From Agarophyton chilense (Eukaryota; Rhodophyta; Florideophyceae; Gracilariales; Gracilariaceae): DNA of 64,000 nucleotides. Positions 4,556 to 49,882 of this stretch are shown piece by piece. Position numbers and translations under genes: made by a program. The stretch spans positions 248,001 through 312,000 of the forward strand of contig JARGXX010000115.1 of NCBI GenBank assembly GCA_030374765.1, written 5' to 3'. Under the pieces are notes generated by a model. That model was not told the DNA's origin, searched no databases, and was given only the letters and a program-made list of their open reading frames with translations. Positions within the stretch are counted from its first letter, which is position 1. Every line of letters starts with the position of its first letter.

Positions 4556-4689
4556 TCCCTTGTGATCTTGGTCAGTATATCCCGCTGTGCGGTAGTGTGT
4601 GCAGCTACTTCGAAAATAGTAAACTGCTTACGTCTATGACCAGCGCCACGGGCGGTGGGATACGGGACAGTACCAACGCTAAGGGCGTT

Positions 4690-8193: not shown

Positions 8194-8203
8194 TTAGTTT
8201 TTC
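8155..8203 (-). promoter_or_regulatory. Candidate -1 frameshift signal between gag and pol, element A
   Basis: Minus strand G AAA AAC TAA at the gag stop, with pol open in the -1 phase across it. About 13 nt downstream, CTCC and GGAG can pair around a 6-nt loop. B and C have an equivalent arrangement with different stem bases. No folding program or reporter was used, so this is inference. Confidence 0.45.
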
Positions 8204-10690: not shown

Positions 10691-10744
10691 CAATTTGTGA
10701 GTCCTCTTTCCAATTAATCGTAACTGAGTGTGCCCGACTCAAAC

Positions 10745-10762: not shown

Positions 10763-10765
10763 GTT

Positions 10766-11630
10766 TGTAGGACAACGCTTGGTGCGAAGACACCACGAAG
10801 ATGTTCGGGATCTTCTTCTTTTGAGAGACACGCCTCAGGCGGAGGAGACGCGTCCCAGCAGAGCATAGAAACAGAGCCACTCTGGAAAGGCACAACGGAG
10901 TCGGGTGTAAGACCAAGGCCAATCCGGCGGGATATACGTAGAGTGTTTAGGTGAGCACGGCACAGTCCGGGGTGTGACCAGTCCTAGGCGGAGCGGTATC
11001 ACGTCGATTGTCGGAAAAGGAGGGAAGAAACACTCGTATGAGGTGGACGAGCGAGGTGAGTGAGGCGGCCACTCACGAGAGCCAAAAGGGAGAGCAAAAG
11101 GAAAACGGGAGCAAACCCCTAAACAGGGGCGAGACTACGACAAGTGTCGGCGATTAAATATGAACCCACGGTTGTGGTAGCACTCTGCTCGACAGAGGGG
11201 TGGATGAACTAACGTGCGACGGGCCCTCACGCAGTATGCGGTGAAGACTCGCCGAAGGCGAAGAGTTTAGAGCCAAGACTCCTTCCTTGGTCTCCCAAGA
11301 GGGTGTTGACTGGGGAGCAGTGCTCAACCTCCTAAGTAGTGTGGCGCGCGCCCGAAAAATAGACACTAAATAGCGATAGCGTAGCTAAATAAATACTAAA
11401 AATTACTAAATAATACTAACCATTAGGTAGAATCCGGGCCACGTGTGGCACGCCTCGCACTCAAGCGTCTGCATCCGTGCAGTCCACGTGTTCCACCAGT
11501 GTGCACTTCCGGTCCTAACAGGCCGTCAGCACGCAATAGCGGTATAGCTTGTCATAGCCCAGGCTATTCCTCAAGCGAGCGAACTCTCTAAGTCCTGCGA
11601 AGAAACCCCCTTGAAGGGCATTGTCCTTCA
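10766..11630 (-). repeat. 5' LTR of element A (865 bp)
   Basis: Partner of 1787-2651. On the plus strand it begins TGTAGGACAACGC and ends TTGTCCTTCA at 11630. The minus-strand sequence after its U5 end is a 3-nt spacer and the lineage primer-binding site (10745-10762), which identifies it as the 5' LTR. Confidence 0.88.
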
Positions 11631-28079: not shown

Positions 28080-28903
28080 GTCTGGAACTATGTTAAGGAT
28101 ACACAAACTGTAGAGCACCCAAGCGACGCCGAAGTGGAATCGGAGAGTCGTGTCAAGGCAGGCGAAGTACAGTTGTCACCCGGACAGGAGCTGAAAAGTT
28201 TAGAGAAAGAACTTATCGAGAGTCACCATCAGCCGTTTTGTTAACACTGAGTTCATGATACACCAGGCTCAGGGGCTACCACCGTATGCGACCCAGAATG
28301 CCTATGGAAAGGAAGAACGATCATTCAAGAAGATTATGAGAGACGTGGCAGTGTGTATAATACCAAAGAACTCAAACATCGTAATCAGCCACGTATTCTA
28401 CAAGGTGAAGCGATGCAACGACAACACCCTCACTCTGAAGGGGCGAATTGCCGTTCATCGGAATAATGACCGCGACAAGGACGTTCTGAAGACTGATTCC
28501 GCAACTTTCCCACCTGTAGGTATCCGCATATTGCTCTTGCTCGCGACCATCTTTCGCCGGACGTTATCCAAGATCGACTTCCAAAGCGCATTTCTTCAAA
28601 CGGAAGCCGAAAGGGACGTGTACATGGTGCCACTACGCGAGTGTAAGACACGGTACCAGCGTTATTAGCTACTTCCATCGGCTGCTTATGGACTTCCAAA
28701 CGCTGGAGCCAAGTGGGAACAGCTAAGTGACCAAGTGCTTCGTGGATTTGGCTTCACCCAGCTTGTGTATGTCCCACAATTATTCTATCAGAACATAGAT
28801 GGCAAGACTGCAATCGTTGCTTTGAAAGTGGTGGATGGCCTCCTGTTCGGTGGAGTTAAGACAAAGGTGTCCGAAGTGATCGAGAAGATAAAGAAGAACT
28901 ATA
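28080..28903 (+). pseudogene. RT of copia element E, part 1 (cut by element B)
   Basis: Linker, then RT with KGRIAVHRNNDRDKD (about 28440), SKIDFQSAFLQTEAERDVY, a stop at 28666, AYGLPNAGAKWEQLSDQV and KVVDGLLFGG (about 28830). The last corresponds to the catalytic (Y/V)VDD box. Its second Asp is Gly, so this copy would be catalytically dead even without the insertions. The sequence stops at 28903, where element B begins. Confidence 0.8.
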
Positions 28904-29817
28904 TGTAGAGCAACGCCCAGTTAGGGGATACTTGAAGATGCAACTCATAGAATGAGGATTGAACCCTCCGAGGGTTATGATTATGATCCCCTCTATGCTG
29001 TGCTGAGGTGGCACTGTTTTCTGGTTATATTTCGCCTATAAGGGAAAATTCGGATGGCCCATGGTTGGATTGGCCCCGTGATACACGTGGCTTAATTTTG
29101 GCACCGAATTTCGGATATTTGTTAGAACGTTGGATTTTTGGGCCCTGGCAGTGGGATCTCCACGTGTATGGCCCTGAGCAGGTGTGCACTGCTGTAGAGT
29201 TTAGTTAGTGGGCCCTACTTAGGGAGGCGAGATCTGACAGTCCGAGCTCAGAGTAAATGACAACCAAGGTTGGTCTTCGATACCTTTAGAGGTTCTTCGT
29301 CGCCATCGTTTCGGCCTTACAACCCAGAACGGGCTCTGGTTAGCAACGCCTGCGTAGGGACACGACTCCACTTGGAGAATGCCCACGTTTGAGTTCCGTG
29401 CAACCACCCCCTTGGGACCGCTCAGACGACCTGCGTGCACGATACCCCGTGGGGGTTCTGCTTACTTGTTGCGTGTTTTTTGTGTTTCCTTTCGAGGACA
29501 GGTTTTCGCCCCTGTATTGGGTTTCTTTTGTTGTTTCGCCCCTTTTCTGGTTCTCGGGTCCGGTGCCTGTTAGTGCCCGACCCTCGCCCCTTTTTTCCTC
29601 TTCGCCGGATTTTCCCCCATTCTTTGGGATACCCATTCCCATTCCCGATCCAACGGTTTCTACCCCTCACCTCCGTCGGTACTGCCGGAATCCCCCGTGG
29701 GAGTTACACCCCACACTACGGGTGGAACGGAGGGCTCTGTCTCTGAGTCTGCCTCCCCCAGTGAGCAAGGCTTCGAACACCTTGAGAGCACTTCCCGTCG
29801 CCGGGTTTTGCTCCACA
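28904..29817 (+). repeat. 5' LTR of element B (914 bp)
   Basis: Begins TGTAGAGCAACGCCC and ends GTTTTGCTCCACA. The ends form a 10-bp imperfect inverted repeat. Several ORFs within it recur unchanged in the 3' copy and are not genes. Confidence 0.9.
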
Positions 29818-29819
29818 AG

Positions 29820-30044: not shown

Positions 30045-32075
30045 ATGACCCCGCCTACCCGTGGTTCCAGGACTGGATCGAACCGTCAAGCGGATTCAGT
30101 GCCCCCGGCCCCGCCTAGGTCGAGGAGCTCTTTTCCCAAAGGTGGGAACGATTCCGGTATCGATCCGGACACTTGGAGAGCACCCTCAGTGGTTTCAGGT
30201 CCTCGAGAGGTCGTGGCTGTGGGCCCAGCTCCAGTGGTGGAGACCCCCTCAGCAGCACCCCGAAGTCGGGCCGACCCTGAATTACAGCGCCTGGAGACTC
30301 GAATTGATATCACCAACGCGGCTCATATCGAGCTCCTTCAGGAGGTTACTATCCTCCGCCTCAAGGTGGAGGACGCCCAGGTGCGGGGAGTCGCCGATGA
30401 CCTTCGTACCCTGAAAAGGGAAGTGAACTCCCTTTTGGAAAGCTTTGGTACCCCTGGGGTCTTTATCCAGGAGTACCGGAGCCTCGTGGAGGAACACCGC
30501 GTGCAAGCGGAACGCTTCCGAGCTCGGCTGGACACCCTCGAGGACATTATCCGTATGGACGGAGACGCAGAAGCCTCGAAGGATAAACCCGACGTTTCGG
30601 AAGACGAAGAACACCGCTCCGCTAAACGGGACCGCCGCAAGTCCAAGAAGAGGGTTCACCTCCAAGAGGATTTATCGGATTCCGATCCCAATCGCTCGCC
30701 ATCGAGTTCGTCCTCCGAATCTTCGGATAGTGAAGATGAACGCCGGTCATCCCGGGCGACTCGGTCGAAGGCTACTTACACCTCTCAAGGGGCAATCCGT
30801 ACCCGGAAGAAGGGTAGGAAACACCTTGGATTAAGTGAGCTGAAGCCGACGAATCCTCTCTATCGGAAGCTGCTATCGTACCGCTATTACCGGTTGGATA
30901 ACCCTTCGGGAGATCGAACATCCCGCGGAACGGGTAAGGTCAAGGACTACATCAAAAGGCTGAGCATCACCCTACAGAAGAGGGAGTTCACAGGAACAGA
31001 CGCAATTATGGTGCTCGATTTCCTTGCGAGGTTCGTCCAGGAGGCTGACATCCTCGGTATGAGTGAAGCGCAAGCGTATCTTGCATTACCCTATTTTTTA
31101 AAGGGGATGGCTGAAGACCAGTTCAACTCCGTCCATGGATCATCCTGAGCCTCGGAAGGGGGAGTCACGTGCTGGCCCGAAGCGGTGCAGTACCTCTTGA
31201 GGTCATACGCTACTGGAAATGCGATTCAGAAAGCAATCCTTGCATTAAGGGATACGCGGCAGAAGCCGATGGAAACCGAAACGGTGTATTCAACTCGCTT
31301 GAATAAAGCGTTTCACCGATGCGGGAATGTATTCCCCGCCTACGAGAGATGCTCCATGTTTGTGGATGGTTTGGACCCCTCGATAAGGGCATTGGTTGCC
31401 CGACATCGGGAAGAAAAGCGCAAGATGACCTACTTGGAATTGGTTCAGTACGCCCAGGCTGAGGGGGATACTCTCCGTGCCCGGCAGAACCGAAAGAGTC
31501 GGCCGACACGTGCACTCCTCGCCGATGGAGGTAACTCGTCTTTGTCACTCGCAGGAGGCTCTGCCCCTGTGGGGGTCAATGATAACATTCACTTCATGGG
31601 AAGTAACCCCGAATCTATGGGTACGTCTGAGTTGCCGTCGACATCCGCTCCGACTACGGATGAAGACCCTGCGCTCTCTACCCAAGGACGGAGGGTGCCA
31701 GCCGCATCGCTACCTTTTGCGAATACCGCTGCTCGGTTCTCTCGCCCCGGATAGAGGGATACAGCACCACCCCGCGTGGATTCACGTCCACAACCGAACC
31801 CGGCAGAGCTGATTTGCTATTTTTGTTACCTCCATGGTCACAAAGCACCAGACTGCACATTTCCCCTGCGGGAGGGTTCACGAGTTATCGCTCACTACGA
31901 GGCTCTGACCCCTGAGGAGAAAGCTCGAGTCCCGAGTAGGTCCTATGAGGAACAAAGGATACTCCGAGCTCACCTTGCTGACAGGGATACAGAACTTGTA
32001 CCGGCGAACGGGGAACAACCGGTCCCCTTCGAGGCAGCTGCACCGAATTCGGTGGGGTCCGCTTCGAAAAACTAA
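30045..32075 (+). pseudogene. gag of element B (two in-frame stops)
   Basis: The ATG at 30045 opens one 677-codon frame to TAA at 32073, broken only by TGA at 31146 (where A has Ser) and TAG at 31752. The N-terminus is Pro/Arg/Ser-rich. Residues ~85-190 are predicted coiled coil by heptad-like spacing. A Ser/Asp/Glu-rich then basic stretch follows. The capsid-like domain (LDFLARFVQEADILGMSEA, MFVDGLDPSIRALVARH) matches A and C. The CX2CX4HX4C zinc knuckle CYFCYLHGHKAPDC is at about 31816. The frame ends TCG AAA AAC TAA, with pol in the -1 phase. Confidence 0.88.
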
Positions 32076-32106
32076 ACTTGGGAGTCTCCCCTGCGGGAGG
32101 GGCGTC
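32066..32106 (+). promoter_or_regulatory. Candidate -1 frameshift signal between gag and pol, element B
   Basis: G AAA AAC TAA at the gag stop, with the -1 frame open across it (codons CTA AAC TTG GGA). The hairpin CTCCC-CTGC-GGGAG starts about 14 nt further on. The equivalents in A and C keep the pairing with other bases. Confidence 0.45.
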
Positions 32107-35100
32107 TTCTAAGCCGGAGTTGAAGACGCCCGAGGCGCTCCAGCTTCGCTCCCCAGCTGTGACTATCCTTTCAAGGAAAACGGCTGACACCGACGTTAAC
32201 TCGGGATACTTTAGTGTCCTCCGTCGCCCGTGGATACGGTCCCGTAATCTCCGTATTCCGGATCGAGTTATGGTAATGGCCAAGCGGAATTATAAGGTAT
32301 TCGCCGACTTCGGCCTGTCCAACCAGTTTATGGTTCGTCAAATATCTGTCCTGGATACAGGAGCCGCTCCTAACTTAATTCATGTTGAATTGTTACCCCC
32401 GCTGCTGCGGGTTCAAGTTCGTACCGGTCCACGTTTGGATATCGCCGATGCGAACAACCACCCGCTACGGACACTGGGTACAATTTCCCCCATGGTGAGG
32501 TTAGGCTCCTATCTCGTTCAACTGGAGTTTATTGTATGCAAGTCACTTGCAGCACCAGTCATACTGGGTTGTGACTTTTGCGACCGCTTTGTGGAAGCCA
32601 TCCGTCCTCGGAATAGAACTGTGGAACTCGAAGACGGGTCTACGATCCCAATCGTTTGTAAACCCTTACAGGGAGCAGCGCGAACACGCGTTCCTCTCCC
32701 CGTCGCGCAGGAATCTGTGAAGAAGGACCCGGTGTCTACACGGGTAAAGGTTGCTAAGTCAGTGGCTATCCCGCCAGAAACCCAGGTTTGGGTCACAGTT
32801 GTTACCAAGCAAATTGGGGTGCATGTGGTACAACCGAACCCGTCTCTGTATACGCGGCGTCAACTCGCCCTTGCGAATGGGGTTGTCTCCGTGGAACCGG
32901 ATAAACCTTTCAAGGTTTTGGTAGCCAACTTTGGAAAGACAACGCAGCATTTGGTCAAACACCAGATCCTGCGTTCTGTTCTTCCACACCCGCATGCGGT
33001 CGTACCTACAAAGATCTCTATCGCAGAGGTCCTTGGTGTGGCGGACCCTAAGGAGGGGGAGGACACTGCCGAAATCGCGGAAGACGGTGAGCATACGACT
33101 GCAGCTCCACACGCTGAACACTTTAAACCTCAGAAGGTTACGGCCCCTATCACTGGAGCAGACCAGACGGATCCTGTTCAGGAATTGGAGAAATGGGATC
33201 TCAACCATGTACCCGCATCTAATCGGGAGAAGCTGAGGCACATGCTTCGTGAATTTACCCCCATGTGGGATGGTTCCCTTGGAACTATTGGGATTACAGA
33301 ACACCGCATCGACTTGTTACCGAACACTCGGCCTATTGCCCAACACCCTTACAGGGCTGGACCGAAAGCTCGGGAAGAGGAGAAATTTCAGGTGGAGAAG
33401 ATGCTTAAAGCGGGCGTAATTGAACCTGCCCAGTCCGCTTGGGCCTCACCAGTGGTGTAAGTTCCGAAACCGGATGGATCGTGGCGTTTTTGCATCCATT
33501 ACAGACGCCTGAACGAGGTAACCATTAAGGATGTGTACCCGATCCCTCGGATGGACGAATACATCGACTCCCTTGGGAGCGCTACTGTTTTCTCTACCCT
33601 CGACGCCAATTTGGGCTACTGGCAAGTCCCTATTAGGGAGGAAGATCGAGGCAAAACGGCTTTCGTGTGTCATCAAGGACTTTTCCGATTCCGGAGGATG
33701 CCTTTTGGGTTGACAAATGCCCCCGCAACGTTTCAACGGGCGATAGACATTCTGTTGGCTCCCTTCAAGTGGAGAACGTGTCTAGTGTATTTAGACGACA
33801 TTATTGTCTTCTCTAACAACCTGGATGACCACCTCGAACACGTCAGGGACGTAATGAAGATACTCCGCGACGCGGGAATCACCTTGAAACTCAAGAAGTG
33901 CGAGTTTTTCACCGATACGGTTAAGTATCTGGGTCATATCATCCGTCCCGGACAGCTTTCAATCGATGAAGTACGAGTGAAATCCTTGAAGGAAGCAAAA
34001 CACCCGAAAACTCAAACGGAGTTGCGATCCTTCTTAGGTCTGTGTAACGTGTATCGCCGATTCGTCCCGAACTTTGCGGATATTGCCACCCCCCTCAACA
34101 GGCTCCTGACGAAGGGACAACCAGTTGAACTGGAACCTTTTGGCGACGCGGAAGCGTCTGCCTTCACGGCACTGGTGAATGCCGTAACATCACCACCAAT
34201 CTTGGCTCTACCCAATCCTGGGCTCCCTTACGAAGTGGACACCGATGCTAGTGCAAACCAAGTAGGGTGTGCACTGTTCCAATCCTCTGAGGATGGTGAA
34301 CGTCACCCTATTGGGTACTGGTCACGTTCCCTGAATGTCCATGAAAGGAACTACTCGGTCTCCGAGAAAGAATGTTTAGCCGTCGTGTGGGCCTTAGCTA
34401 CACTTCGCCCCTATCTGATGGGTACTCGTTTCAAAGTCCATACGGACCACGCATGCTTGCGTTGGCTCCTGAAGATCTCCGAACCCTCGCGCCGCCTTAT
34501 GCGCTGGCGTCTCCGACTGTCGGAATTCGACTTTGAGATCCTGTACAAGAAAAGGAAGCTGAACACTCAGGCTGATGCACTATCCCGCTTGGGAACAACA
34601 GCGGAAACGGAACCCTACGAGGACGATGACATCCCATGCTTTATGGTATCGGACCTCGAGGGAGGAGCTCAACCGCTGACGGATGATGTTTGTGACGATA
34701 TACTCGTCAACGAGAGTCGGGATTCGCCGACCGGCTCTTTAACTTCGGATACTCCCGAACCTGGGCCCGCTCCCTCAAGGGCCCAGTCAACTAACTCTTA
34801 CAGAGTTACTCCCCCACCGGAGGTAATCAAGCCTCCTGACTCTCCGCCTAAGGAGGGGGAGGAGGACTTAGTTCCTTCGCAGGACGATGTTTCGGCGTCA
34901 GCCAATCGCCCTAACAGGGAATCTAGTTCTCACAGTGAGACGGCGAGCCCGACCGAGCCAGCGACAGAGAAGTCACAACCCCAGCGTATGGGTAACGACA
35001 TCACCGCCGACCCAGCCGAGCACGACGTCAGAAAAGATGACGAAAACCCGCCTAGGGAGAGTCGTGTGGAGAACTCCGCACCCGGAACGCCTATAGAGCC

Positions 35101-35251
35101 GACGATAACCCGCCGCCGCGGAAGAGACACTGAGGTGTCGCACACTCAAACCCCGCTTTCTCGGGAACGAGCTGTGTCAGCGGACCCGCACGGGGAAGAT
35201 CTCGACGACGAGGTTGACCAAATTTGGCTCTCCGTCATGGAATGGGAATAG
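32072..35251 (+). pseudogene. pol of element B: protease, RT, RNase H, low-complexity tail; no integrase core
   Basis: Protease VLDTGAAPNL (about 32350) and ILGCDFCDRF. RT from GVIEPAQSAWASPVV, with TAA at 33458 where Leu is expected. The RT continues with HYRRLNEVTIKDVYPIPRM, RRMPFGLTNAPATFQRA, VYLDDIIVFS and YLGHIIRPG. RNase H has YEVDTDASANQVGCALF, SVSEKECLAVVWAL, VHTDHACLRWLL and QADALSR. After RNase H the frame enters a 200-residue Pro/Ser/Asp/Glu-rich segment and stops at 35249. Neither the integrase HHCC finger nor the D-D-E core found in A and C is present. A faint remnant of the integrase C-terminal region (VDVEVLPP, NTVVIG in other phases) may lie at 35380-35620. Confidence 0.88.
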
Positions 35252-35829
35252 GAACTCCTATGGAGACACTGGAACCCTCAGGAATGGGAAAGAAATGAGT
35301 GAGACCCGTCGGGGACAGCTCAGGAGAGTGCTAGCGCGTGCCGAAAGCGCCACCTCACATCCGCTTGCGGAGTGGCAATCGGCGCCCGCGCATTTATGTG
35401 GCACACGTCGAATGGCACCGAGCCAATCAAAAGGCTCTGACGACCAACCGTCGCGCAAACCGCCTCCGTCGCACGGCGCGTTGCACCAGAGCAACCTTCG
35501 TCCCCGTAGCTCGGGTTGACGTTGAAGTCTTACCCCCCTGAGATTGGAGACGCTACCGCGTCGCGGTTTCTCAACCGTCACGTAATCTAAGAACACCGTT
35601 GTTATCGGGAAGATCTCAGCTTTAAGAAGAACCCAAAACTTGGCCGTTTTGACTCCGTAGACGGAAGTTACAACGTAGCCCACAGGCCACTCGGCGCCAT
35701 TTGGACGAAGTGCTGAGACCCGCTTGCAACACGGAAAAGAACCCACAGGGGTATGTCTAGACCCTACGTTAACACCCTCAAGGGAACTTGAGCGTTCCAA
35801 GATGGAATAGAAGCCCGAACAGGGAAAAG

Positions 35830-36040
35830 TGTACCCGCAGGAATTCGTTATCGATCGCATCGTGCGTCACATCTACACCCCGAGGGAGAAGTTCGCTACC
35901 AAGTCCGATGGTACGGATTCTCGCCTGAGGAGGATACAGTGGAACCCATTGAGCACCTTCCGAGGTCTAAGGTTTTATCCTATCACCGACGCGCTCGGGT
36001 AACCTTGCCCCCAAATCTGGATCGTGCCCAAGTCGGGTAA
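35830..36040 (+). pseudogene. Chromodomain remnant at the end of element B pol
   Basis: The same phase as pol gives VRYQVRWYGFSPEED, then EPIEHLPRSKVLSYHRR, ending at TAA 36038. This is the chromodomain-like C-terminus of gypsy integrases, with Y...VRWYGF...ED..EP spacing. C has the corresponding RIRWYGFPPEADTWEP. The Trp of DTWEP is Val here. Upstream, a YPQEFVIDRIVRH start survives in another phase, showing a frameshift. Stops separate it from the RNase H tail. Confidence 0.7.
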
Positions 36041-36214
36041 GCCACCACGGGAACTGGTGTGAATGGGACCTCGAAGTGAGGAAGATGTTGGACCTCTGAA
36101 GAGGAATTGAGGAGAGTATCCCGAAGAACACGTATTGAGAGGGAATGTTTACAGGCCCTCGGCCTAGCGCCGTTAACCGGGGAACACAGCACCGGTTATC
36201 GGGACAGTTTATGA

Positions 36215-36376: not shown

Positions 36377-36439
36377 GCAAATATCAGAAGTTTACTATTG
36401 TCGCCAAGCTATGGACTCCACAATTACCCGAAGGTGGAA

Positions 36440-38296
36440 CTACGGAAAGCCCGAGGAGGGACCCGCCCCACCGTTGGGATTCTGACCCTGATGGTACGCC
36501 GAGGCGAAAGCCAACATCTGGCTCACATCCGTCATACCCGGGGGAATCGGAATGCCCGCGTTCACGAGGCCTTGTCGCACACTATCCGCTTGCGGAGTGG
36601 CAACCGGCGCCTGCGCAAGGGTGTTCACACCCCACCCGGCGGGAGCAGATGGACCGCCACCGGATGCATTCGCCGCCGCAGCTGAGGTCGTTCCCACTGG
36701 TTGGAAGGGTGCAGATGGCTCCACAGGGAGTACTCCACTAGGAGCTGGCATGTCATTATCAAATGCTGGATCGTCCAGGTCTACTGGAGGCTCGTACTCG
36801 TAATCGTCAGTATGAATGAACCCCGTCGGGTGTCCCACCGGCATCGGTCGAGGCGAGTCAATCAGCGCCCGTGCTTGCGCCGCGCTGATGCGAACCCCTT
36901 CGAAGGGATTGTAATAGACCCAGTTACCGGAGCCCGGATCGTACCGTCCAGGAGACTTGTCTCGCGCGGATCCTTCCCCTGCGGGCTGATTTGCCACTGG
37001 AACTCGATTTCATTGGGTGTTGTCGATCACGTCCAAGACTGGATACAGGTCCTGCACGCTGCTGGCCGAACCCAACGCTGGGACAAGGTCGATTTGACAC
37101 ATGATGGTCCGTAGCATCGGAGGAATATACCAGATACGGAAATGGTCATGAGCATCCCAGAGGAGGTGCGCCGCTACGCGGGCTGCCCACTCGGCTGCAA
37201 CGAGGGCCCAGTATCCCGAGTTCGGGTCGTGCATCAAACGAGACCCGATATAGTAGATACATGGGGGCAGTTCAGCAAAGCACCCTCGGGGGACCCCGAC
37301 CTTACTCCACCAAGCTGGAAGGAGCACGAATCGCCCAACCTTCGCCGTGTTACGGATACGCTCCAGTTCCACGTGAGGATACTGGACAAGGAACCCGAAA
37401 CGGGAGCGCGAGCGGCGCTCGAAGCGCACGCGTCGATCGAACCCATATTGGGTAAACTGCCGCTGAAGGTACCTGAATTCAGCCCGAAGGATGGGACGAC
37501 TCCATTGGAGCATATCTTCTCGGAGAGGAAAACCCGGTCCGCGGAACTCGGCTGCGGGAAAGGATGCCAAGTTATCCCCGTAGGAGACCTCACCGTACGT
37601 GCGGTAATAGGCGACATCGAACCCGTACTCCGGGGGAACCAGATGGTCAAAGCGTGACCTCTCCAATCGCTGGTAGGCCAGAGCCGCCATCGCTGCGCGG
37701 GCCTTGTCCAGGGACTCCCCGCGACTGCGGTATAGATACTGAGGCTCTATGGCTACCCGCGCCCTCCAATCGGGAGAACGTACAACCTCAACAGGTAGGC
37801 CACCCGGCAATAAGCCGTCCTCCACGTAGGAGTCGATGAGCTCATCGTCGCGAACCGCTGTTGGATGGAACCACGGAGCGCGGGAATATATCACCGGATC
37901 GGTAAGGGGACTCCACCTTCGAAAGGATTCGTTTGAGATCCAACCTCTGGAGTTTGCTACCAAGGGCATCGCATGAGCGGAGTTCCACGCCACCGCGGTG
38001 ATGTCCAAATCCTCCTGAGGATGTCGGTTGACCGCCGAGGCGGAAGGTTCGGTACCTGACGGAGCCGCATCCAAACAGGAGAAATATCCACCCTGCTGGG
38101 GAGCTTCGTTGTCCGCCGGCGCGGAGGCTGATGGCCCCGAGAGTGGGTTGATGACGTATGGGTTCATTCCCTTGAGAGGGCTAGTCGAAACCGCTGCTGC
38201 GAGAAGTTGCGTATCGCCGAAAGTCGGAGGAGTAGAAGAAAGTTGTACCGATGTGCCGGTTTTGTGGCGATCCTCAGAAGTGGTGAAGGACCCCAT
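36440..38296 (-). pseudogene. Antisense accessory gene of element B (aORF family, one in-frame stop)
   Basis: The first minus-strand ATG is at 38296, 82 bp from the 3' LTR. The same frame is open further up, to about 38335. It stays open to 36440, about 619 codons, with a single stop: TGA near 37008, where A and C have Trp (VDW). The first ~140 residues are Ser/Pro/Asn-rich. The core has RAPWFHPTAVRDDELID, PILRAEFRYLQRQ, RRSRSRFGFLVQYPHVE, DPNSGYWALV, AEWAARVAAHLLWDAHDHF and RIWYIPPMLR. Then come GNWVYYNPFEGV, MPVGHPTGFIHTDDY, an acidic stretch and a Gly/Asn/Ser-rich end. The gene order, length and core match A and C. Convergent to pol. No known family recognised. Confidence 0.82.
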
Positions 38297-38364: not shown

Positions 38365-38377
38365 AAGGAGGGGGAGA
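38365..38377 (+). promoter_or_regulatory. Polypurine tract of element B
   Basis: AAGGAGGGGGAGA directly before the 3' LTR, sharing AAGGAGGGGGA with A. The antisense gene starts on the other side of it. Confidence 0.8.
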
Positions 38378-39291
38378 TGTAGAGCAACGCCCAGTTAGGG
38401 GATACTTGAAGATGCAACTCATAGAATGAGGATTGAACCCTCCGAGGGTTATGATTATGATCCCCTCTATGCTGTGCTGAGGTGGCACTGTTTTCTGGTT
38501 ATATTTCGCCTATAAGGGAAAATTCGGATGGCCCATGGTTGGATTGGCCCCGTGATACACGTGGCTTAATTTTGGCACCGAATTTCGGATATTTGTTAGA
38601 ACGTTGGATTTTTGGGCCCTGGCAGTGGGATCTCCACGTGTATGGCCCTGAGCAGGTGTGCACTGCTGTAGAGTTTAGTTAGTGGGCCCTACTTAGGGAG
38701 GCGAGATCTGACAGTCCGAGCTCAGAGTAAATGACAACCAAGGTTGGTCTTCGATACCTTTAGAGGTTCTTCGTCGCCATCGTTTCGGCCTTACAACCCA
38801 GAACGGGCTCTGGTTAGCAACGCCTGCGTAGGGACACGACTCCACTTGGAGAATGCCCACGTTTGAGTTCCGTGCAACCACCCCCTTGGGACCGCTCAGA
38901 CGACCTGCGTGCACGATACCCCGTGGGGGTTCTGCTTACTTGTTGCGTGTTTTTTGTGTTTCCTTTCGAGGACAGGTTTTCGCCCCTGTATTGGGTTTCT
39001 TTTGTTGTTTCGCCCCTTTTCTGGTTCTCGGGTCCGGTGCCTGTTAGTGCCCGACCCTCGCCCCTTTTTTCCTCTTCGCCGGATTTTCCCCCATTCTTTG
39101 GGATACCCATTCCCATTCCCGATCCAACGGTTTCTACCCCTCACCTCCGTCGGTACTGCCGGAATCCCCCGTGGGAGTTACACCCCACACTACGGGTGGA
39201 ACGGAGGGCTCTGTCTCTGAGTCTGCCTCCCCCAGTGAGCAAGGCTTCGAACACCTTGAGAGCACTTCCCGTCGCCGGGTTTTGCTCCACA
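38378..39291 (+). repeat. 3' LTR of element B (914 bp)
   Basis: Begins TGTAGAGCAACGCCC and ends TTTTGCTCCACA, followed by CTATA. No mismatch with the 5' LTR was found by eye. Confidence 0.9.
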
Positions 39292-39389: not shown

Positions 39390-40043
39390 TGTAGTATTCT
39401 ACTATGTCGGGGAATCCGATAGGATGATTTTTTCGCGAAGTCGCGGTTGGAACTCATAAGTGAGTGATGTCATCAAACTTGTGATATGAAACGGCACACC
39501 ACGTAGGATGCCAGGAGGCAGGGTACATTAGTGGAACACGTGGTATGACGAGTGGACTGGCTTGCAACGGCGCATGTAGTGGCGATCCACGTGGCTGGTT
39601 TTACTACCCTTTGTAGCTAGACGTCCATTAAGGACCGTACCCATACAGTGGTTTGGCTAAGTGGCTGACCACTGGGTATTATTTATATATTTACTTGGGC
39701 ACTCACCCTGGAACACAGTATATAGTGTACCAAAGGTGAGCGCCGACTCCAAGTAAAGGAGACAACATGGGCATCATGACTATTCTGTTCCTCGCTTAGG
39801 ATTCCTTAACCGGAGATCCGGACGAGCTATAATAGATAGTCAGCCCCAAACCACTTCACGAGCCGCCCATCAACGTTTTACAGTTGCATTGTTCACCCTC
39901 GCTGGCGAGTAGTGGCCTTACACCCCACTTCCAGCTCTCTGGTGTTGTAGCTCTACCACCCCCTTTACTTCGCCACAAGCGACCCATCGGCAGTACGATC
40001 GCTGTCGCAGGTGTCTGCTCTCTCCGTTAGAGCGGATACTACA
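39390..40043 (+). repeat. 5' LTR of element C (654 bp)
   Basis: Begins TGTAGTATTCTACTATG and ends GAGCGGATACTACA, with an 8-bp perfect terminal inverted repeat (TGTAGTAT/ATACTACA). LTR J (1570-1786, 11636-12035) is a diverged relative. Confidence 0.9.
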
Positions 40044-40045
40044 AG

Positions 40046-40063: not shown

Positions 40064-40255
40064 CCACTGTGGTCAGCTGCACTGAATACTTCGTTCCTGG
40101 AACGTGGAATCAATATCGATACCTGGAACAAGTGGAATCACTACAGTTATTGGTTATCAAACCACCTCTGGCAATTGCGGAATTCATCCTGGTTGACCAC
40201 GTGGTCGAGAAGTCGAAGACACCATTTGGTTCGCACCCGGACTCAGGTTTGGTCT

Positions 40256-42411
40256 ATGATGCCGAAGACCCGAATCCAGTCGAGTACTGGTCGCTTCGGT
40301 CCTGCGGGACCACCCCCGAGACCGGGGCTCGCCTCATCTGTTGAAGCCGGAGAGCGGCTGTATCGTCAAACGATGTCGCGCTCACGCTGGGTGAATGATG
40401 AACGAGATCTCTCGGATGTACCGGCCCCTGTGGCAGCTGCAGTCAAGCCCACCACTGAAGCCGTAGTTGACCCTGAGGTCGTCGGACCTCAAGAAGAGGA
40501 TGATTTGCGCAGGGAAATGCGTCGTCTCAAGTCTGAGTCAAGCGCTTCGCGTGTGCGCATGGTTGCGTTGGAATTGCAGATCGCTGCTCTTATCGCTGAT
40601 GTAGAACGATTACGCAGTGCGCATCAAGCACTCGTTCGTCAAGACGATGGGAAGCAGGTCTCTGCATCAGTGAAAACACTACGTGAGGATTTGATCCATC
40701 TACTGGAGAGGTACGGGAATACGCCCAATGCGCTACCCGGCTTAACCGTGGATGTCGAGGAAGTCCTCACTCGAGTTAACCCTCGTTTAGAACGCCTGGA
40801 GGCGGCAGTTCATGCCCAGACTGCTGCTAAACCAGTCGTGCTGGAAGAGGAATGAGCTCCTTTGAAGGAAGCTCGTTCGAAGAAGTCGATGTCACGACGT
40901 AAGAAGTGGAAGTCCGCACGTGATTCGAGTGATGAATCGTCAAGTACGGAGGGTTTCAGTTCCAGTACTGATGATTCTGATGATTCAGATACGTCAGATG
41001 AAGACGACAGTGATGATGGTCATCGAAGGTCCCGATCTCGGAAGAAGAACACGTCTTCGTGGTTAATGAGAAAAAAGGATCACCTTACAGAGGATTGAAG
41101 GTGCTCCCATGCACGAATCCGCTTTATCGAAAGGTCCTGAATTACAGGTACTACCGTCTGAAGGTGAAGAGCAAGAAGTGCTCAGGACGCGAAACCGCGA
41201 AGGTGAAGGATCACATCAAACGATTGAAGATCGGCCTTAATGATTTAACATTTGATGGGAAAACCCCCATTCTTGTTATCGAGTTTCTCACTCGATTCGT
41301 TGCCGAAGCAGACACTCTAGAGATGAGTGAACCACAGGCATTTGTGTCTTTACCACACTTCCTGAAGGGTTTTGCTTTAGAGAAATATCATCCCGTATGC
41401 GGATCATTGACAGCCGATGAAGGCGGCGTTATCTTATGGCCAGAGGCGGTGCAGTATTTGCTGCGCAGTTACGCGACTTCAAACGCGATACGTCAGGCGA
41501 TCCTGGACCTAAGGGATGTGACACAAAAGCCTTAGGAGGGCGAAGCTGAGTACAGCTCAAGGCTTAACAAAGCTTCAGTTCGCTGTGGAAACGTCCACTC
41601 GACGGAGGACAAGATTACCTTGTACATCGACGGTGTGGACCCGAGCATCAAGTCGTTGGTAGCTCGATATCGAGAGAAGCATGGACGAGTCTCCTTTTTG
41701 GAGTTAGTTCAGTTTGCGAAAGCTGAAGGAGACGCGGCCAGAGCGCGTGGTAGCTCCCGTCGTTCAATGTCTTTTGGAACCTCAATGGGTAAGGAGAAGA
41801 TCTCCGCCAGAGTTAATCAGCGTAGCAAACTGCTACACCTGGAATCTCCAGTAGACTCACGAGATTCGTCGGTGGCACCCAAAGGGGGTGACTTGCATGA
41901 GGAGGCGGTTCATTTAATGGAATATACGGACTCTTCTGTACCTACAGTGGATCCCCCACACTCAGAGTCTCAAGACGAGGAAGCCCTAATGGCTATGGAG
42001 GGCCGTCGCCCTATGTACTGTCCCTACATGGTGCCTCCAAAAGGAGGTTTTAAGAACGGGAAACCCGGATGGGTGGATACTCGTACGGCATACCGTTCAC
42101 AACCTATGTTGACCAACCGTCCTGACGGTTTGATATGTTATTTATGTTATGGAAAACGCCATTTAAGTGCAGAATGCACGCTTCCTGCACAAGATCTGAG
42201 TCGTATCATGGCGAATTATGAAGCACTCTCAGAAGAGGAAAGGAGCCGCGTACCGGCGGGCATGTATTTGAAAGCCAAAAGTTGGTTTTCTCGGACACCA
42301 ATGCGCCGGACGGACAAGCCGGTTGCTCAGAATGCTGAAGTGTTACAACCCGGAACCCCGGTAGGAAGAGGCGCCTTTGAGGCGAATAAGCCGGTGCAAC
42401 CGGAAAACTAA
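40256..42411 (+). pseudogene. gag of element C (two stops, one frameshift)
   Basis: Possible ATGs lie at 40256 and 40373. A coiled-coil-like region (LRREMRRLKSESSASRVRM to about 40830) is followed by a stop at 40853. A Ser/Asp-rich then basic segment follows, a frameshift at the A-run near 41070, the capsid-like domain (NPLYRKVLNYRYYRL, VIEFLTRFVAEADTLEMSEP), a stop at 41531 and the zinc knuckle CYLCYGKRHLSAEC (CX2CX4HX4C) at about 42140. The frame ends CCG GAA AAC TAA at 42409. Homology with A and B covers capsid and knuckle; the N-terminus is more diverged. Confidence 0.85.
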
Positions 42412-42442
42412 GTGAGGGATCCCCTAAGGGGTCGGCACTAGT
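42402..42442 (+). promoter_or_regulatory. Candidate -1 frameshift signal between gag and pol, element C
   Basis: G GAA AAC TAA at the gag stop, with pol open in the -1 phase (CTA AGT GAG GGA). CCCC-TAA-GGGG can pair about 12 nt downstream. The stem differs in sequence from A and B but lies in the same place. Confidence 0.45.
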
Positions 42443-45400
42443 CGATCCCGTAGTGCTGACCAGGGAGAGCTCGCCTCCCTGCTCCCGCGCTTGGAGGCCC
42501 AAGATTCTCTTGAGGCCTCCCAAATTTCCGCCGTACGGAATCCATTCGCCGGACGGAAAGCGAGTACAGTTTGACTGTGAGTTACATCGTCCTTGGAGAC
42601 GTTATACTTGCCCGTCAAAACGAGAAAGTTACCTCATGGTAGTTTCTAAAAGAAACTATAAGGTCTTTGCCGACATCGGCTCTGACAGGAATCTGTTCTC
42701 TCGTCGATTGGCTATCCTGGACACAGGTACTGGTCCGAACTTTATACAGGAATCGGAGCTCGCTCCTGCTGACTTAGAACGTATTCGATACGGTCCTTTA
42801 CCGGACATCCGGGATGCCAACAAAAATGCTGTGAAGACACTGGGAACAGTTCGACTCGTGGTGCGTTTGGGACGCTTTGTAGTCCTAGTCGACTTCATCG
42901 TCTGTAAGAAGTTAGCTGCACCAGTGATACTGGGATGTAATTATTGCGACAAGTTTGTCGAAGCCATTCGCCCGCGAAGAAAACTAGTGGAACTAGATGA
43001 TGGATCAATGGTACCAATTGTTCGCAAGCCAATGCTTCGTTGCCCCGAAGCACCTCCACTTCCACCATCTATGGAATACGGGAAATCCCAATGACGTGTC
43101 TCGCCAAGGATTCGAGTAGCGAAGAGTGCCATGCTGAAGGCGCAAACCCCAACTTGGGTTCAAGTAAGAACAGAACGACACGGACTCGTGGTAATTCAAC
43201 CGAATACTCGGATGTACGAATCCCGTGGATTGCTAGTCGCTAACGGCATTGTTCAGGTTGATCCTGGTAGCCCCTTTTGAATACTAGTGAGTAACTTCAC
43301 CGAAAACGATTATCAGATACCGAAGAATCAGGTTGTTGCAACAGCTTTGCCTCATCCCACAGTGGTGGTACCTACTCAAGGCTCTCTGGATCCTTTGCCG
43401 TTTGCAAAGGATCCAGAGAGCCTGGTCGATGAGATAGACTTGGCACATGTGTCGGAACACTACAGAACGAAGATCAGGTCTATGCTGAAGAAGTATAAAT
43501 CCATGTGAAGTGGAAAACTAGGAGAGATCTCCGCTACGGAACACCACATTGATTTGGTCCCAGGGTCACGACCCATCTCCCAACCACCCTACAGAGCGGG
43601 ACCGCGAACTCGCCAAATCGAGGAGGAGAATGTCAGCAAAATTCTGGAAGAAGGAGTAATAGAAGCAGCTCAATCTGCTTGGCCCTCACCAGTGGTGCTG
43701 GTTCCAAAACCTAATGGTTCTTTACGATTCTGTATCGATTATCGAAAACTGAACGCAGTTACAGTTCGAGATACATACCCGTTGCCTCGAATGGACGAAT
43801 ATATTGACAGCTTAGGAGAAGCGAACATGTTCACCACGTTGCACGCCACCTCTGGCTATTGGCAGGTGCCTGTAGCGGAAGAAGACCAAGATAAAACCGC
43901 ATTTGCGTGTCACGCCGGTCTCTACCGTTTCAAAAGGATGCTCTTTGGCTTAACGAATGCACCGGCTACTTTCCAGCGTACTCTGGACATCTTGCTCTCA
44001 AGATACAAGTGGAAGACTTGTTTAGTCTATTTGGACGATGTGATCATCTTTTCCCAGGATGTGGAAAGCCATTTACGGCATGTCGAGGAGATCCTCAAAG
44101 CACTACAGAGCGCAGGTATCACCTTGAAGTTCAAGAAATGCGAATGGTTCGCTGGCACCGTCCGCTACTTATGACATGTGATCAAGCCGGGACAGATTGC
44201 AATTCAAGAGGCATAAACAGCAGCTCTCCGCGAAGTACAAGCTCCGTCGACACAGAAGCAATTGCGTTCTTTCCTCGGCATGTGCAACGTCTACCGACGA
44301 TTCGTGCCGCGATACTCGCATATAGCGGCACCGCTCAACGCAAAGCTGCGTAAAGGACAACCAGTACAGCTGGAACAATTCAGACAAGCTGAAGCGGAAG
44401 CGTTCGACACGCTGGAGACAAAGATTATTACAGCCCCAGTCATGGCGCTGCCCATCCCCAACCTGCCGTACTCAGTGGATGCCGACTCTAGCGAGTACCA
44501 AGTAGGGTGTGCCCTTTTTAAAACACACCCTGATGGTGAACGCAAACCCATTGGTTACTGGTCAAGATCGCTGAACGCAGCTGAGAAGAAGTATTCAGTT
44601 TCAGAAAAGGAATGCCTTGAAGTCGTTTGGGCTCTAACCACATTGCGACCGTATCTCCAAATAGAACGTTTTACCGTCAACACGGATCATTCGTCTCTAC
44701 GATGGTTGCTGTCCATTACAGACCCGTCTGGTCGTCTCACACGATGGCGCTTACGTTTTTCTGAATTCGATTTCGAAGTGAATTATAAGAAGGGCTTGGC
44801 CAATGTCCAAGCTGACGCGCTATCGCGACTCAAAACACTGGGCGAAACCCAAGGCGAAATCGATGAAGAGATAACTTGCTTCTAAATGGAGACCCATTCA
44901 CCATCTTTTGGAGAAGAGGAACAAGAGACCCTTGATGATTATTCGGATGCAGACCCGTTCCTTGCATTAGCAGATACTGACCCTTCAGTTCAACTCGAGC
45001 GAATCTCGCGCACTGAGCTCCTCAATGAGCAATACGCCGATACGTTTTGGGCGTCGATACGCTCTCGTCTTAACAGGGGGAAGGAGCTCTCCTTTTCACT
45101 CGATTCACGAGGAATACTGTTAAGACATGTCGAAAAGCATGATCAAATCGTGATTGCACACGTCTTGAAGGGTCGTGTACTCCATCTGGCACACTACAGC
45201 AGGCTGTCCGGTCATCCAGGAGGAACGAAGTTGTTCATGACTCTAAGAAGAGATTTTTACTGGCCTACTTTGGCAATGGACTGCCATGCTACAGTGAGGT
45301 TGTGTACAACATGTGCGAAGAATCGCGTGAAGGTTTACAGGAAGCGGAAACCGATGACGTTATTCCAGGCGAAAGCGCCTTTACAATACGTCAGTATCGA

Positions 45401-47167
45401 CATCCTAGGGGATTGATTCGCTCAAGGCGAGGTTATCGCCACCTGTTGGTAATCACCGACCGCTTCTTGAAGCAAGTGCGGACTGTGCCGGTGAAGCGGA
45501 TAACCGCAACCGTAATCGCACAGGCGTTTATCAAACACTGGGTATTTATATACGGACCACCAAAAGTTCTGTTATCAGAAAATAGGAAGCAATTCGTTGC
45601 GAAGTTCTTTCAGAATGTTTGCCGCATTATGGGCATTCGAAACGTGTTTACCACGACCTATCCTCCGCAATGCAACAGTCAGGTGGAGCGTTTCAACCGC
45701 ACGCTGATAGCAGCATTACGACACTACATCGCGGACCACCCGAAAGAATGGGACATGTTTACAGATACTCTGTGCTACGCGTACAATACGCAAGTGCATA
45801 CCTCTACAAAGACGGCACCGTTCGACCTCGTGCTCTCATGTAACCCTCCGGCTTTACCGGTTGCGCTCGACGGCGAGACAGAATTGGACGCGCCGACCCC
45901 GGCTAAGTACCATCTGAAATGGAGGAATGACCTGAAGGCCAGAGCGGAAGAAGCCGCTAAAGAGTTATCAAAGACGCAAGCTCGCTATAAGAGAAACTAT
46001 GACGCCAGAAGGCGAAGAGGAAATCCGGCAATCCGAGTAGGAGGTCACGTCTTCGTGCGAATCGAAATACCTGACAAACAGGAAGAATCTTGTCATAAAT
46101 TGTTGCCGATAGCGGCTGGACCCTTCAAAGTGGTGGACCTTGATGAAGACACAGTGGTCATCAAGACAGGTGAGGACGTTGAACGTGTATCGCGCGATCG
46201 CGTTGAAGTCGCGCCTGAACCGCAAGTGGAAGTCCAGGTATCTGGTAAAACTAAGGAGGCAAGTGCGACGGAACGTCAAGGCAAAAGCCCAAGTGACTCT
46301 GGAGAGAGTGAACCGCCACCAATAGCTTGAGCGGAGGAGAAAGCTCCTGATCTCCCACCGCCGGCGGTTGCGTAGGCCAATCACGGACAGCTTCCGAAAT
46401 ATCAGGATATGCCCCGTGGCACGCACACATCCGTAAGTACAGAAATGGAACCTGAAAGCAGGAAAGATGTTTTGGAATTTGGCTTCAAAGACTTGGAAAC
46501 GAGTGCACGCGAAAACGCGCCGTTGTTGCTTCAGGCTGAACCGTCAGGTGAAGCGCCACTCGCTGTTCCGCCGATATCGGCTCCCATCCCTTGTGGGCAG
46601 GAAGAAGAAGAGGTATCGCCTCCTGTCGTGGTGCGAGCACCATCATCCACCAAACAGCGGTCAGAATCGGATAAACCAAAGGAAGTTCATCCACGAATGG
46701 AATTGAGCAGTAGCAAGAAGTACGCTTCTATGGAACCTGGAAAACAGGGTAGCTATTTATCTGAGAAAGGTTCTCAAGGAATGAGTACACTGCCCCTGCG
46801 GGCAGAACGACAGTTAGTCGACGAGCGAACGCTTAGCGACGTTGAGACTGCTAACAAAGAGACGCTTGGGTCAGCTTTAAGGCATTTCAAACCTGTTAAC
46901 AGGAATCTCGCGCCAATAGCGAAAGCATTGGGAAACGCCCAAGAATATGTTATGGATCGCATATGTGAACATGGCGAGCATGAAGATAGCAGATAATTAC
47001 TGTATCGAATCCGTTGGTACGGTTTTCCTCCGGAAGCGGATACGTGGGAACCTATAGCTCATATCCCCCGTTCGCAGCTCGTGCGATATCATCGAGGCAT
47101 GCGATTACCACTCCGCAGGGAGATCGACTCCTCGATAGTACGGCTCATGGGCACATCCCATTTCTAA
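42410..47167 (+). pseudogene. pol of element C: protease, RT, RNase H, integrase, chromodomain (broken)
   Basis: Protease ILDTGTGPNF (about 42716). RT has RFCIDYRKLNAVTVRD, RMLFGLTNAPATFQR and VYLDDVIIFS. RNase H has YSVDADSSEYQVGCALF and VNTDHSSLRWLL. The integrase zinc finger is HYSRLSGHPGG...CTTC (45190-45320). The core has SIDILG, then LLSENRKQF, where the second catalytic Asp (Asp in A) is Glu, and SQVERFNRTL. A GPFKVV segment and a charged linker precede the C-terminal chromodomain RIRWYGFPPEADTWEP, ending at 47165. Stops occur at 43092, 43276, 43506, 44172, 44214, 44883, 46328, 46372 and 46994. The phase changes near 45410. Confidence 0.88.
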
Positions 47168-47190: not shown

Positions 47191-47275
47191 AACTCGAGAA
47201 GCGAGAAGAAGGATTGAAGAACTCGAGAAGCGAGAAGAGATGATTGAAGAACTCGAGAAGCGAGAAGAGATGAAG
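47191..47275 (+). repeat. GA-rich tandem repeat, three ~29-bp units, element C
   Basis: Units start at 47191, 47220 and 47250 (AACTCGAGAAGCGAGAAGA...). It sits between convergent pol and the antisense gene, like the purine tract of B. Confidence 0.88.
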
Positions 47276-47378: not shown

Positions 47379-49205
47379 TCAAAGAGTCGTGCGAGCACGC
47401 AGGTTCGCTAGAAGCTGTGCGCGATCACCCTCAACTTGGTCCACGGGAAAGCCCGCATCTAAGAGGAACTGCCTCAGCGGATCCAAGCCTGGATCTTCAA
47501 CCGGCACTGCACTCGGTTGTTGGGTAAACTCATGATAGTACTCTTGAGCAACTCCCGCCGTTGCGGATTGATAGACGGAAGTCGCTACGCCTGCCAGCTC
47601 TGGCTCGTCCTCGTAACCGAGTTCAGCCTCAGTTCCTGGCGCTTCCTCATACGGTTCCTCTCCGTTCTCGGATGGAGTAGCATCGTACACGTATCCAGTA
47701 CGCTGGTTAGGTGGCATGTCACGCGGGTTCTCCCGAAGAAAGCGACCCTGCTCGGAGGTGATCAACTGGCGCGTCCAGGGGTCGTACCAAACGAAATCTC
47801 CAGCACTTGCTGTTCGTCCAGGAGAATGGTCGTGGTGTCTTGCACGGGTTCCGCGAGCGGATTGATCAGCTGGCACTCCAGACCAATCGACACTGTCGAT
47901 CAAATCAAGAAGATGGAGGAAGTCGGCATGGTTCACTGGGGATCCCAGGACAAGGGAAAGATCGAGTTCTCTCGCATACTTTCGCGCTGTGGGCGACATG
48001 TACCAAACTCTAAAGGTATCAAAAGCATCCCATAGGAGGAAGACGGCCATCTTGGCGATAAACTCGGTATAAACCACCGTCCAATATCCCGAGAACGGGT
48101 CGTTAACCAACGCGGACCTGATGTAGGAGATCGCCGGTTGGAGCTCCACAGGGCAACCACGAGGACTCTCGATCGCCGCCCAATGCTCCGGAATACCGAT
48201 GTAGCGCCCGAAGCGCGCGTTCCGCCGGATGCGGTCAATCTCGATCATTTGATACGGCACAAAATAGCCCAAACGTGATCGAGTACGACGTTCCCAACGG
48301 GGATAATCTCAATAGAGAATGTAACGCTTTCGAAGGAAGTGGAACTCCGCACGGAGAAGAGGTTGCTGAAAGCAGAGAGCTGCATCACGCACACCGCGCA
48401 CACCGCGCCAACCGCTAATATCGACTTCAACGAGTGTCTCGATATACGAGCAACCTTCACCGTCGGTACGGGCTTTCCAGGTATCTAGTTCCCAGTTCTG
48501 CGGGAGGAGAACCGTACTGATGAATCGGTGAAGACGCTGGTAAATCTGCTTGGTGAACGGCGTACAGGCGTCGGACAAGGTTTCCGCTGAATATCGCGCA
48601 ATCGCGTTGTCTGGCAAAGCAATATGGCTCGCCCAGTCGTCCATATGAATCGCGTGTTCCGGAATACCGTCAGGGAAGTACCCACCGTGTACATACTGTT
48701 GTATCAACGCGTCATCGCGGATAGCAACTGGATCAAACCAAAGCGCTTGCGCGAAAAGTTCAACGTTGTCGAGAGGACCTCGTCCATAGAAATCCGCAGG
48801 GTGCGGGTAGCTCCGCTGAGCACGACGGGAAGGAGCTCGAATCACACCTGCAGAGGCGAGGTAAGCCGCATTCGGCATCGGAGCCACGGTTGGCTGAGGT
48901 AGCGGTACCGACCGGAATCCGGTGTACGGTGTGGGGAACGAACGGTATAGATCGAGTTAAGCAGTAGGCTGCGACGCATAACCAGCAGTGTTGGACGGAG
49001 CCCCAGAAGGCACATCCTCAGAGGAGGGCTGAAACGGATTGGACCCGGCGTTCGGATCCATCGCGACAGATCGAGCTGAACAGCCGTGAGGAACAGAATG
49101 CTGTTGAACACTGTAAGAGTTGGTCGGGCGGCGAGGAATTCGTGATGACGATGAGTACCTGGAACACCGGTCCGACTGCGTATAAACGCTTCTTGCGTCC
49201 CCCAT
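47379..49205 (-). pseudogene. Antisense accessory gene of element C (aORF family, two in-frame stops)
   Basis: The minus-strand ATG at 49205 (MGDARSVYTQSDRC) is 25 bp from the 3' LTR. One frame of about 609 codons runs to 47379, with stops only near 48957 and 48309. The core matches A and B: ALWFDPVAIRDDALIQQYV, PLLRAEFHFLRKR, RTRSRLGYFVPYQMIE, DPFSGYWTVV, LLWDAFDTFRVWYMSP, VDWSGVP, GDFVWYDPW and an acidic Glu-rich stretch. It ends in DRAQLLANLRARTTL, comparable to DALVARLTGG in A. Charged, no membrane span, no zinc ligands. The three proteins clearly differ in sequence but keep length and motif order. Confidence 0.82.
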
Positions 49206-49229: not shown

Positions 49230-49882
49230 TTTAGTATTCTACTATGTCGGGGAATCCGATAGGATGATTTTTCGCGAAGTCGCAGTTGGAACTCATAAGT
49301 GAGTGATGTCATCAAACTTGTGATATGAAACGGCACACCGCGTAGGATGCCAGGAGGCAGGGTACATTAGTGGAAAACGTGGTATGACGAGTGGACTGGC
49401 TTGCAACGGCGCATGTAGTGGCGATCCACGTGGCTGGTTTTACTACCCTTTGTAGCTAGACGTCCATTAAGGACCGTACCCATACAGTGGTTTGGCTAAG
49501 TGGCTGACCACTGGGTATTACTTATATATTTACTTGGGCACTCACCCTGGAACACAGTATATAGTGTACCAAAGGTGAGCGCCGACTCCAAGTAAAGGAG
49601 ACAACATGGGCATCATGACTATTCTGTTCCTCGCTTAGGATTCCTTAACCGGAGATCCGGACGAGCTATAATAGATAGTCAGCCCCCAACCACTTCACGA
49701 GCCGCCCATCAACGTTTTACAGTTGCATTGTTCACCCTCGCTGGCGAGTAGTGGCCTTACACCCCACTTCCAGCTCGCTGGTGTTGTAGCTCTACCACCC
49801 CCTTTACTTCGCCACAAGCGACCCATCGGCAGTACGATCGCTGTCGCAGGTGTCTGCTCTCTCCGTTAGAGCGGATACTACA
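49230..49882 (+). repeat. 3' LTR of element C (653 bp)
   Basis: Collinear with 39390-40043. It starts TTTAGTATTC, so the second base of the terminal TG is mutated. One T is missing from a T-run, and about six more substitutions are seen. Confidence 0.9.

Follow-up and report, generated by a model that had tools for sequence, protein, structure and literature searches.

We describe an antisense gene carried by three Ty3/gypsy retrotransposons, elements A, B and C, in a stretch of 64,000 nucleotides from the florideophyte red alga Agarophyton chilense (GenBank assembly GCA_030374765.1, contig JARGXX010000115.1, positions 248,001 to 312,000 of the forward strand), referred to below as the window. 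In each element the interval from pol to the 3′ long terminal repeat (LTR) contains an antisense open reading frame (aORF), which is read against gag-pol and is situated just inside that LTR. The aORF has the character of a protein-coding gene constrained by purifying selection, with a near-fixed start codon beside the LTR, and is kept in three families; that it is a genuine gene under selection we regard as almost certain. We propose that it is an accessory gene of a chromodomain-bearing Ty3/gypsy lineage of florideophyte red algae, transcribed from the 3′ LTR and encoding a product that regulates the element, an account that we consider probable on balance and in which we infer both the promoter and the function.

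The antisense genes so far reported from LTR elements are mainly open reading frames (ORFs) with no established role, in flowering plants and one fungus. The layout is thus known, and the protein family and the host group appear to be new: with the aORF, the layout is seen in red algae and in chromoviruses as well, and for a protein that is related to no catalogued family.

The antisense frame, its copies and selection

A preliminary description of the window, made from the DNA letters and without database searches, had reported three such frames, and their positions, lengths and internal stops (Table 1) are all as it stated. It also held that the three proteins align along their length, which protein alignment bears out: the B protein is 36% identical to that of A and 32% identical to that of C over the whole alignment, and in local alignments the aORF proteins are pairwise 32–41% identical, compared with 54–66% for the reverse transcriptase (RT) pieces of the same elements. 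When the region is compared frame by frame, similarity between families is highest in the aORF frame (BLASTP bit scores of 271 for A-B, 241 for A-C and 259 for B-C) and second highest in the mirror frame, which shares its third codon positions with the aORF (124, 82 and 102, respectively).

Copies were sought in the 79.76-Mb assembly of 135 contigs, and those scored are the ones nearest to the window's own copies, not a random sample. The 18S gene of this assembly, its cox1 when read with TGA as tryptophan, the gene order rps3-rpl16-trnD-cox1-cox2-cox3 and copies of cox1 spaced 27 kb on a single contig accord with a florideophyte red-algal host. The published assembly of Gracilaria (Agarophyton) chilensis is described as having 48.9% GC and 66.2% repeats (PMC10388701). 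The B core gave 95 scored matches of 1772 first-look candidates, each with at least 93% identity; the A search gave 120 scored of 1399 candidates and the C search 132 of 1526. Among the scored B matches, 60 of 95 are free of stops over the matched part of 441 amino acids, and 45 of 95 are both stop-free and part of a full-length frame of at least 639 codons. The preliminary description had treated the copies as dead; the window copies are indeed broken, but intact frames exist elsewhere in the genome.

Besides the window copies, 65 loci were analysed (29 A, 7 B and 29 C). The aORF is seen in 65 of 65, although the loci were picked by aORF similarity, so that copies lacking it would be missed. 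Every one of them has the edge of an antisense LTR a short way upstream of the aORF start; start codon and LTR are 36 bp apart in 29 of 29 A loci, 81 bp in 7 of 7 B loci and 27 bp in 27 of 29 C loci (16 and 26 bp in the other two). The ATG is retained in 63 of the 65 loci, and a polypurine tract sits between the start codon and the LTR.

With the window copies included and two of the 29 A loci (L029 and L030) dropped for short coverage, 66 copies could be aligned (28 A, 8 B and 30 C). Stops in the aORF frame average 1.7, 0.9 and 1.5 per copy in A, B and C, and the frame is open in 6/28, 2/8 and 7/30 aligned copies, respectively. The five other frames average between 8.9 and 30.7 stops per copy, with 21 to 31 in the mirror frame, and are open in none of the 66. 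The sense frames are stop-rich in every aligned copy, and no env-like sense ORF was found after pol in them. Sense coding opposite the aORF is ruled out by the many stops in all other frames; since the opposite strand is not open, the codon bias of a sense gene, which the preliminary description had raised as a possible cause of the open frame, is not the explanation. Base composition by codon position in the aORF is similar to that in pol.

Selection was measured as the mean pairwise ratio of nonsynonymous to synonymous substitution rates (dN/dS, Nei-Gojobori), which in the aORF is 0.66 for A (28 copies), 0.43 for B (8) and 0.68 for C (30). The other frames give 0.77–0.97 in A, 0.46–1.14 in B and 0.71–1.14 in C, the mirror frame being lowest each time. 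We also split variants by frequency, taking the expected ratio of nonsynonymous to synonymous polymorphism (pN/pS) from the same mutation spectrum and excluding variants present in two copies. Variants found in at least three copies have a pN/pS of 0.49 in A and 0.54 in C. Singleton variants, which are mostly newer than the insertion, stand at 0.96 and 0.89, and singleton stops occur at the neutral rate (0.041 vs 0.043 expected in A, 0.044 vs 0.046 in C). Fisher tests of shared against singleton variants yield odds ratios (OR) of 0.48 in A (p = 3e-4) and 0.57 in C (p = 0.03), uncorrected. Because shared variants are under purifying selection and private ones are near neutral, selection acted on the aORF of the active A and C lineages, as expected for a gene used by active copies and in agreement with the earlier proposal of selection on the protein before the copies died; the pattern recurs in two families of one genome. 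Neither of the two outcomes that the preliminary description had set against such a gene, a dN/dS near 1 with no intact copy and a frame held open by opposite-strand codon bias, was found.

When nine parts of the aORFs were tested apart, the three cores gave p < 0.05 (A 0.008, B 0.048, C 0.035) and none of the six end parts did. A yardstick was provided by the C sense stretch after the integrase (26 copies), taken as the tail of pol, which lies in the frame of the integrase and has no Pfam match: its dN/dS is 0.71 and its OR 0.24 (p = 4e-4), beside a dN/dS of 0.68 and an OR of 0.50 (p = 0.035) for the C aORF core. The constraint on the aORF is therefore real, but by the frequency split it is not stronger than that on pol.

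Several observations weigh against reading these results as selection on the aORF protein. The dN/dS of the mirror frame nearly equals that of the aORF in B (0.46 vs 0.43) and in C (0.71 vs 0.68), so that mean dN/dS alone cannot pick the aORF over the mirror frame in these two families; the stops do. Two of 15 control frames also reach p < 0.05 (the A mirror frame, OR 0.62, p = 0.02; B frame 3, OR 0.19, p = 0.04). For element B the full-length frame contains only seven shared variants (p = 0.71), and the B singletons, at 0.69, are not neutral. The copies analysed here were likewise chosen for nearness to the window's own and not at random. Finally, the aORF is broken in 22 of 28 A and 23 of 30 C aligned copies, and in the window copy of B despite its identical LTRs; in that copy the stop may be newer than the insertion, or the product could be supplied in trans.

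Predicted protein and host elements

Protein-set searches, in which only the candidates with the most shared words were scored (7994, 7996 and 7994), returned homologues at 30–67% identity, among them P0001 (E = 4e-167). P0003 is the hypothetical protein BWQ96_10156 of Gracilariopsis chorda; P0004–P0007, P0009 and P0010 are further relatives, with records from the sources 'ena' and 'lgn', and P0008, P0011 and P0012 are A. chilense fragments 86–95% identical to the B protein. Judged by these similarities, relatives exist in at least one other red alga. The gene had been introduced as unrecognised, which remains apt for its function but not for its sequence, as BWQ96_10156 and the A. chilense fragments had already been deposited. 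Viral contigs gave 13 pattern matches and, by the patterns used, no relative.

A Pfam search of aORF pieces and an hmmscan of nine family members (E up to 1) found nothing significant. The hmmscan returned only DUF3905 (0.12) and E3_binding (0.24), both under the cut-off, and no match to TRP28 (PF04195), SMC domains or bZIP, the last of which had already been noted as absent. The structure prediction envisaged in the preliminary description was run on the core with AlphaFold2 and an 18-row alignment, and gives a mostly helical model with a mean predicted local distance difference test (pLDDT) score of 80.5 and a predicted template modelling (pTM) score of 0.82. The folded core comprises about 370 residues, with invariant Arg and Glu, and the ends of the protein are of low complexity. 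Foldseek searches of the whole core against PDB and viral models, with a second look by VIA, found no significant fold match, nor did a search of a 197-residue part of the core against PDB only. The protein had been assigned to no known family, and this stands after the Pfam and fold searches and a PDB-sequence search without a significant match.

Table 1. Antisense frames and other parts of elements A, B and C in the window (window coordinates)
Feature	Position	Strand	Remarks
aORF of element A	2687..4555	+	623 codons, 2 internal stops
aORF of element B	36440..38296	-	619 codons, 1 internal stop
aORF of element C	47379..49205	-	609 codons, 2 internal stops
3′ LTR of element A	1786..2651	-	pairs with 10765-11630, 99.4% identity
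gag-pol part of element A	4617..10693	-	integrase at 4710-5354
5′ LTR of element A	10765..11630	-	pairs with 1786-2651, 99.4% identity
5′ LTR of element B	28903..29817	+	100% identical to 38377-39291
gag-pol part of element B	30045..35251	+	multiple frames, with RT and RNase H at 33533-35251; no integrase detected
chromodomain-like pol end of element B	35792..36037	+	Chromo, E 4.8e-5, 23.6 bits (cut-off 25.1)
3′ LTR of element B	38377..39291	+	100% identical to 28903-29817; putative source of the antisense transcript
5′ LTR of element C	39392..40043	+	pairs with 49232-49882, 98.9% identity
gag-pol part of element C	40175..46996	+	integrase at 44886-46330
purine-rich 30-bp tandem array between C pol and aORF	47191..47273	+	sequence repeat
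3′ LTR of element C	49232..49882	+	pairs with 39392-40043, 98.9% identity

By Pfam, RT is present in all three elements, RNase H in A and B, and integrase in A and C. Three of three A loci scanned (L011, L023 and L028) encode a chromodomain in sense orientation next to the aORF, where pol ends; Chromo scores 27.9 to 31.1 bits there (E = 2e-7 to 2e-6), above the cut-off of 25.1. Element B has a near-cut-off match in the corresponding place (Table 1), and the C copy has a chromodomain-like stretch with a stop in it, as judged by eye. On this domain content the three elements are chromoviruses of the Ty3/gypsy group. The window copy of A is without the chromodomain part of pol: of the 29 other A loci, 25 cease to match this copy at position 4640, and the remaining four are unmatched in that stretch. 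At least 500 bp that follow the aORF elsewhere, chromodomain included, are missing from this copy, through internal deletion or rearrangement.

The LTRs of A, B and C do not match each other in a self-comparison of the window at E = 1e-10, in keeping with the preliminary description; the age it deduced applies to the three families, which are old, but not to the window copies themselves, which are young by their LTRs. The sequence GGTCTCCCGACTT occurs after the 5′ LTR in all three elements (29790-29840, 40030-40075 and 10735-10775) and is likely a common primer-binding site despite the differing LTRs. The array that separates pol from the aORF in the C loci (L040-L069) is made of purine-rich units of 29–31 bp, present in about 2.6 to 8.6 copies depending on the locus. 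As to tandem arrays in the other families, B has only short 12-bp runs and A has none past the aORF, the A loci reaching about 500 bp.

Nothing within element B matches the integrase protein of A or that of C, and the RT frame of B shows no integrase domain. In a second B copy (L071) the RT region runs, at 90–98% identity, into the same integrase-free stretch, so that integrase is absent and the aORF kept in two of two B copies examined (window 34850-36440 and L071). For this reason the B family is probably non-autonomous and moved by the integrase of another family. When the starts of the A and B LTRs are compared by eye, about 15 bases look similar, as might be expected with an A-type helper. 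B copies could borrow an integrase and yet have retained the aORF, and this integrase-free, aORF-bearing family offers a natural experiment on which parts an element can spare. The B family is abundant, and the LTRs of its window copy are identical, despite the absent integrase.

Proposed role, known parallels and rival explanations

With the start codon no more than 27 to 81 bp away from the LTR, the aORF mRNA would have its 5′ end within the 3′ LTR or beyond it, and transcription from the 3′ LTR itself is likely. The mostly helical core protein would then regulate the element, most plausibly in the nucleus, at the level of transcription, silencing or copy number. That the gene acts for the element follows from its being kept by selection in active lineages while dead copies decay. 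A nuclear regulator is suggested by analogy with HBZ of human T-lymphotropic virus type 1 (HTLV-1) and with the role proposed for plant antisense ORFs; the product may be one, though we hold this with some doubt. Two negative results count against such a regulator and its promoter: a promoter-motif scan found no TATA box near the aORF start and no convincing promoter motif, and the hmmscan of nine members recognised no nucleic-acid-binding or other domain in the protein.

Like the aORF, HBZ is an antisense gene near a 3′ LTR. It differs in that the aORF has no bZIP match and in that element and host are unrelated, and the aORF protein is about three times as long. An antisense promoter inside the 3′ LTR is described for HTLV (PMC7264820). 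Antisense ORFs in this layout are described for Grande, RIRE2, Retand and PvRetro13 in plants and for Boty, with its brtn gene, in a fungus (PMC7264820, PMC8365987). Compared by description, Grande gene23, RIRE2 and PvRetro13 share the layout and, as presented in PMC7264820, are likewise of unknown function; no SMC domain match was found in the aORF. A nuclear location is reported for gene23 (PMC7264820), and a regulatory role has been proposed for plant antisense ORFs (PMC11963269, PMC7264820). Boty brtn of Botrytis cinerea, also compared by description, shows that a Ty3/gypsy element from outside the plants can carry an additional antisense gene (PMC7264820, PMC8365987). The Retand elements of flowering plants, with their TRP28 antisense ORFs, have tandem repeats in this region in part of the elements (PMC11963269): arrays lie between pol and the 3′ LTR in about half of them; of the three families here, C has an array, with a period of 29–31. 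Unlike the Retand ORF, the red-algal aORF gave no TRP28 match in nine members, and Retand is described as a non-chromovirus (PMC11963269), whereas elements A, B and C carry chromodomains and have a red-algal host. The parallels with HBZ and with plants drawn in the preliminary description hold for layout and do not extend beyond it. In the open-licence literature, judged by titles and the starts of abstracts, we found no paper that describes antisense ORFs for elements of red algae.

Other roles for the protein must be weighed against regulation of the element. It might be an anti-silencing factor directed at the host instead of a regulator of the element's own transcription. The aORF diverges more than RT, as proteins in host contest often do, and the families are large, with at least 95 (B), 120 (A) and 132 (C) scored places; but there is no sign of positive selection, the shared variants being under purifying selection, no domain is recognised, and fast change may equally reflect loose constraint, which makes this role unlikely in our view. 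A structural or enzymatic part in replication, whether in the particle, the integration complex or target choice, seems more improbable still. It would fit the folded core with its invariant Arg and Glu and the retention of the aORF by the integrase-free B family. Target choice, however, already has a candidate in the chromodomain at the end of A pol and the near-cut-off one in B, no significant fold match points to such a function, and particle proteins are unlikely to be made from an antisense transcript.

Explanations that place the significance of the frame elsewhere fare no better. The aORF may descend from a host gene captured, or a second element nested, in one ancestor, and the G. chorda relative is indeed annotated as an ordinary hypothetical protein; yet the same place and orientation recur in three families and 65 of 65 loci, the protein belongs to no known family, and capture, which we judge quite unlikely, would account for the origin of the gene and not for its present function. 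Non-coding antisense transcripts occur in other LTR elements (PMC7264820), and the antisense RNA might be what matters, with the frame left open as a side effect of a sense gene or of the base composition. The depletion of amino-acid changes among older variants, the peak of inter-family similarity in the aORF frame and the lack of an open sense frame opposite it speak so consistently against this idea that we give it hardly any credence.

The account of the aORF as a gene for a regulator of the element may be taken further, if tentatively. Red-algal chromoviruses may have evolved an antisense regulator that is read from the 3′ LTR and has a new fold, independently of plants, fungi and retroviruses, and one family may have shed its integrase and kept this gene. 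Were this true, the aORF would be less dispensable to a copy than integrase, and antisense accessory genes would represent a repeated solution of LTR elements. Recent movement is evident from LTR pairs with as much as 100% identity, so the role of the aORF could be tested in living algae.

Other repeats in the window

Another chromodomain element occupies 50709-56656, with 217-bp terminal repeats at 50829-51045 and 56190-56406; it is inserted in a copy of the sequence at 24924-25291, and a 5-bp overlap of the flanks resembles a target-site duplication. A copia-type element at 19104-23874 has 249-bp terminal repeats that are 97% identical. Open frames at 25295-28079, beside a repeated stretch, have weak DUF1759 and Tudor-like matches (E ~1e-4, under the cut-off) and perhaps belong to a retroelement.
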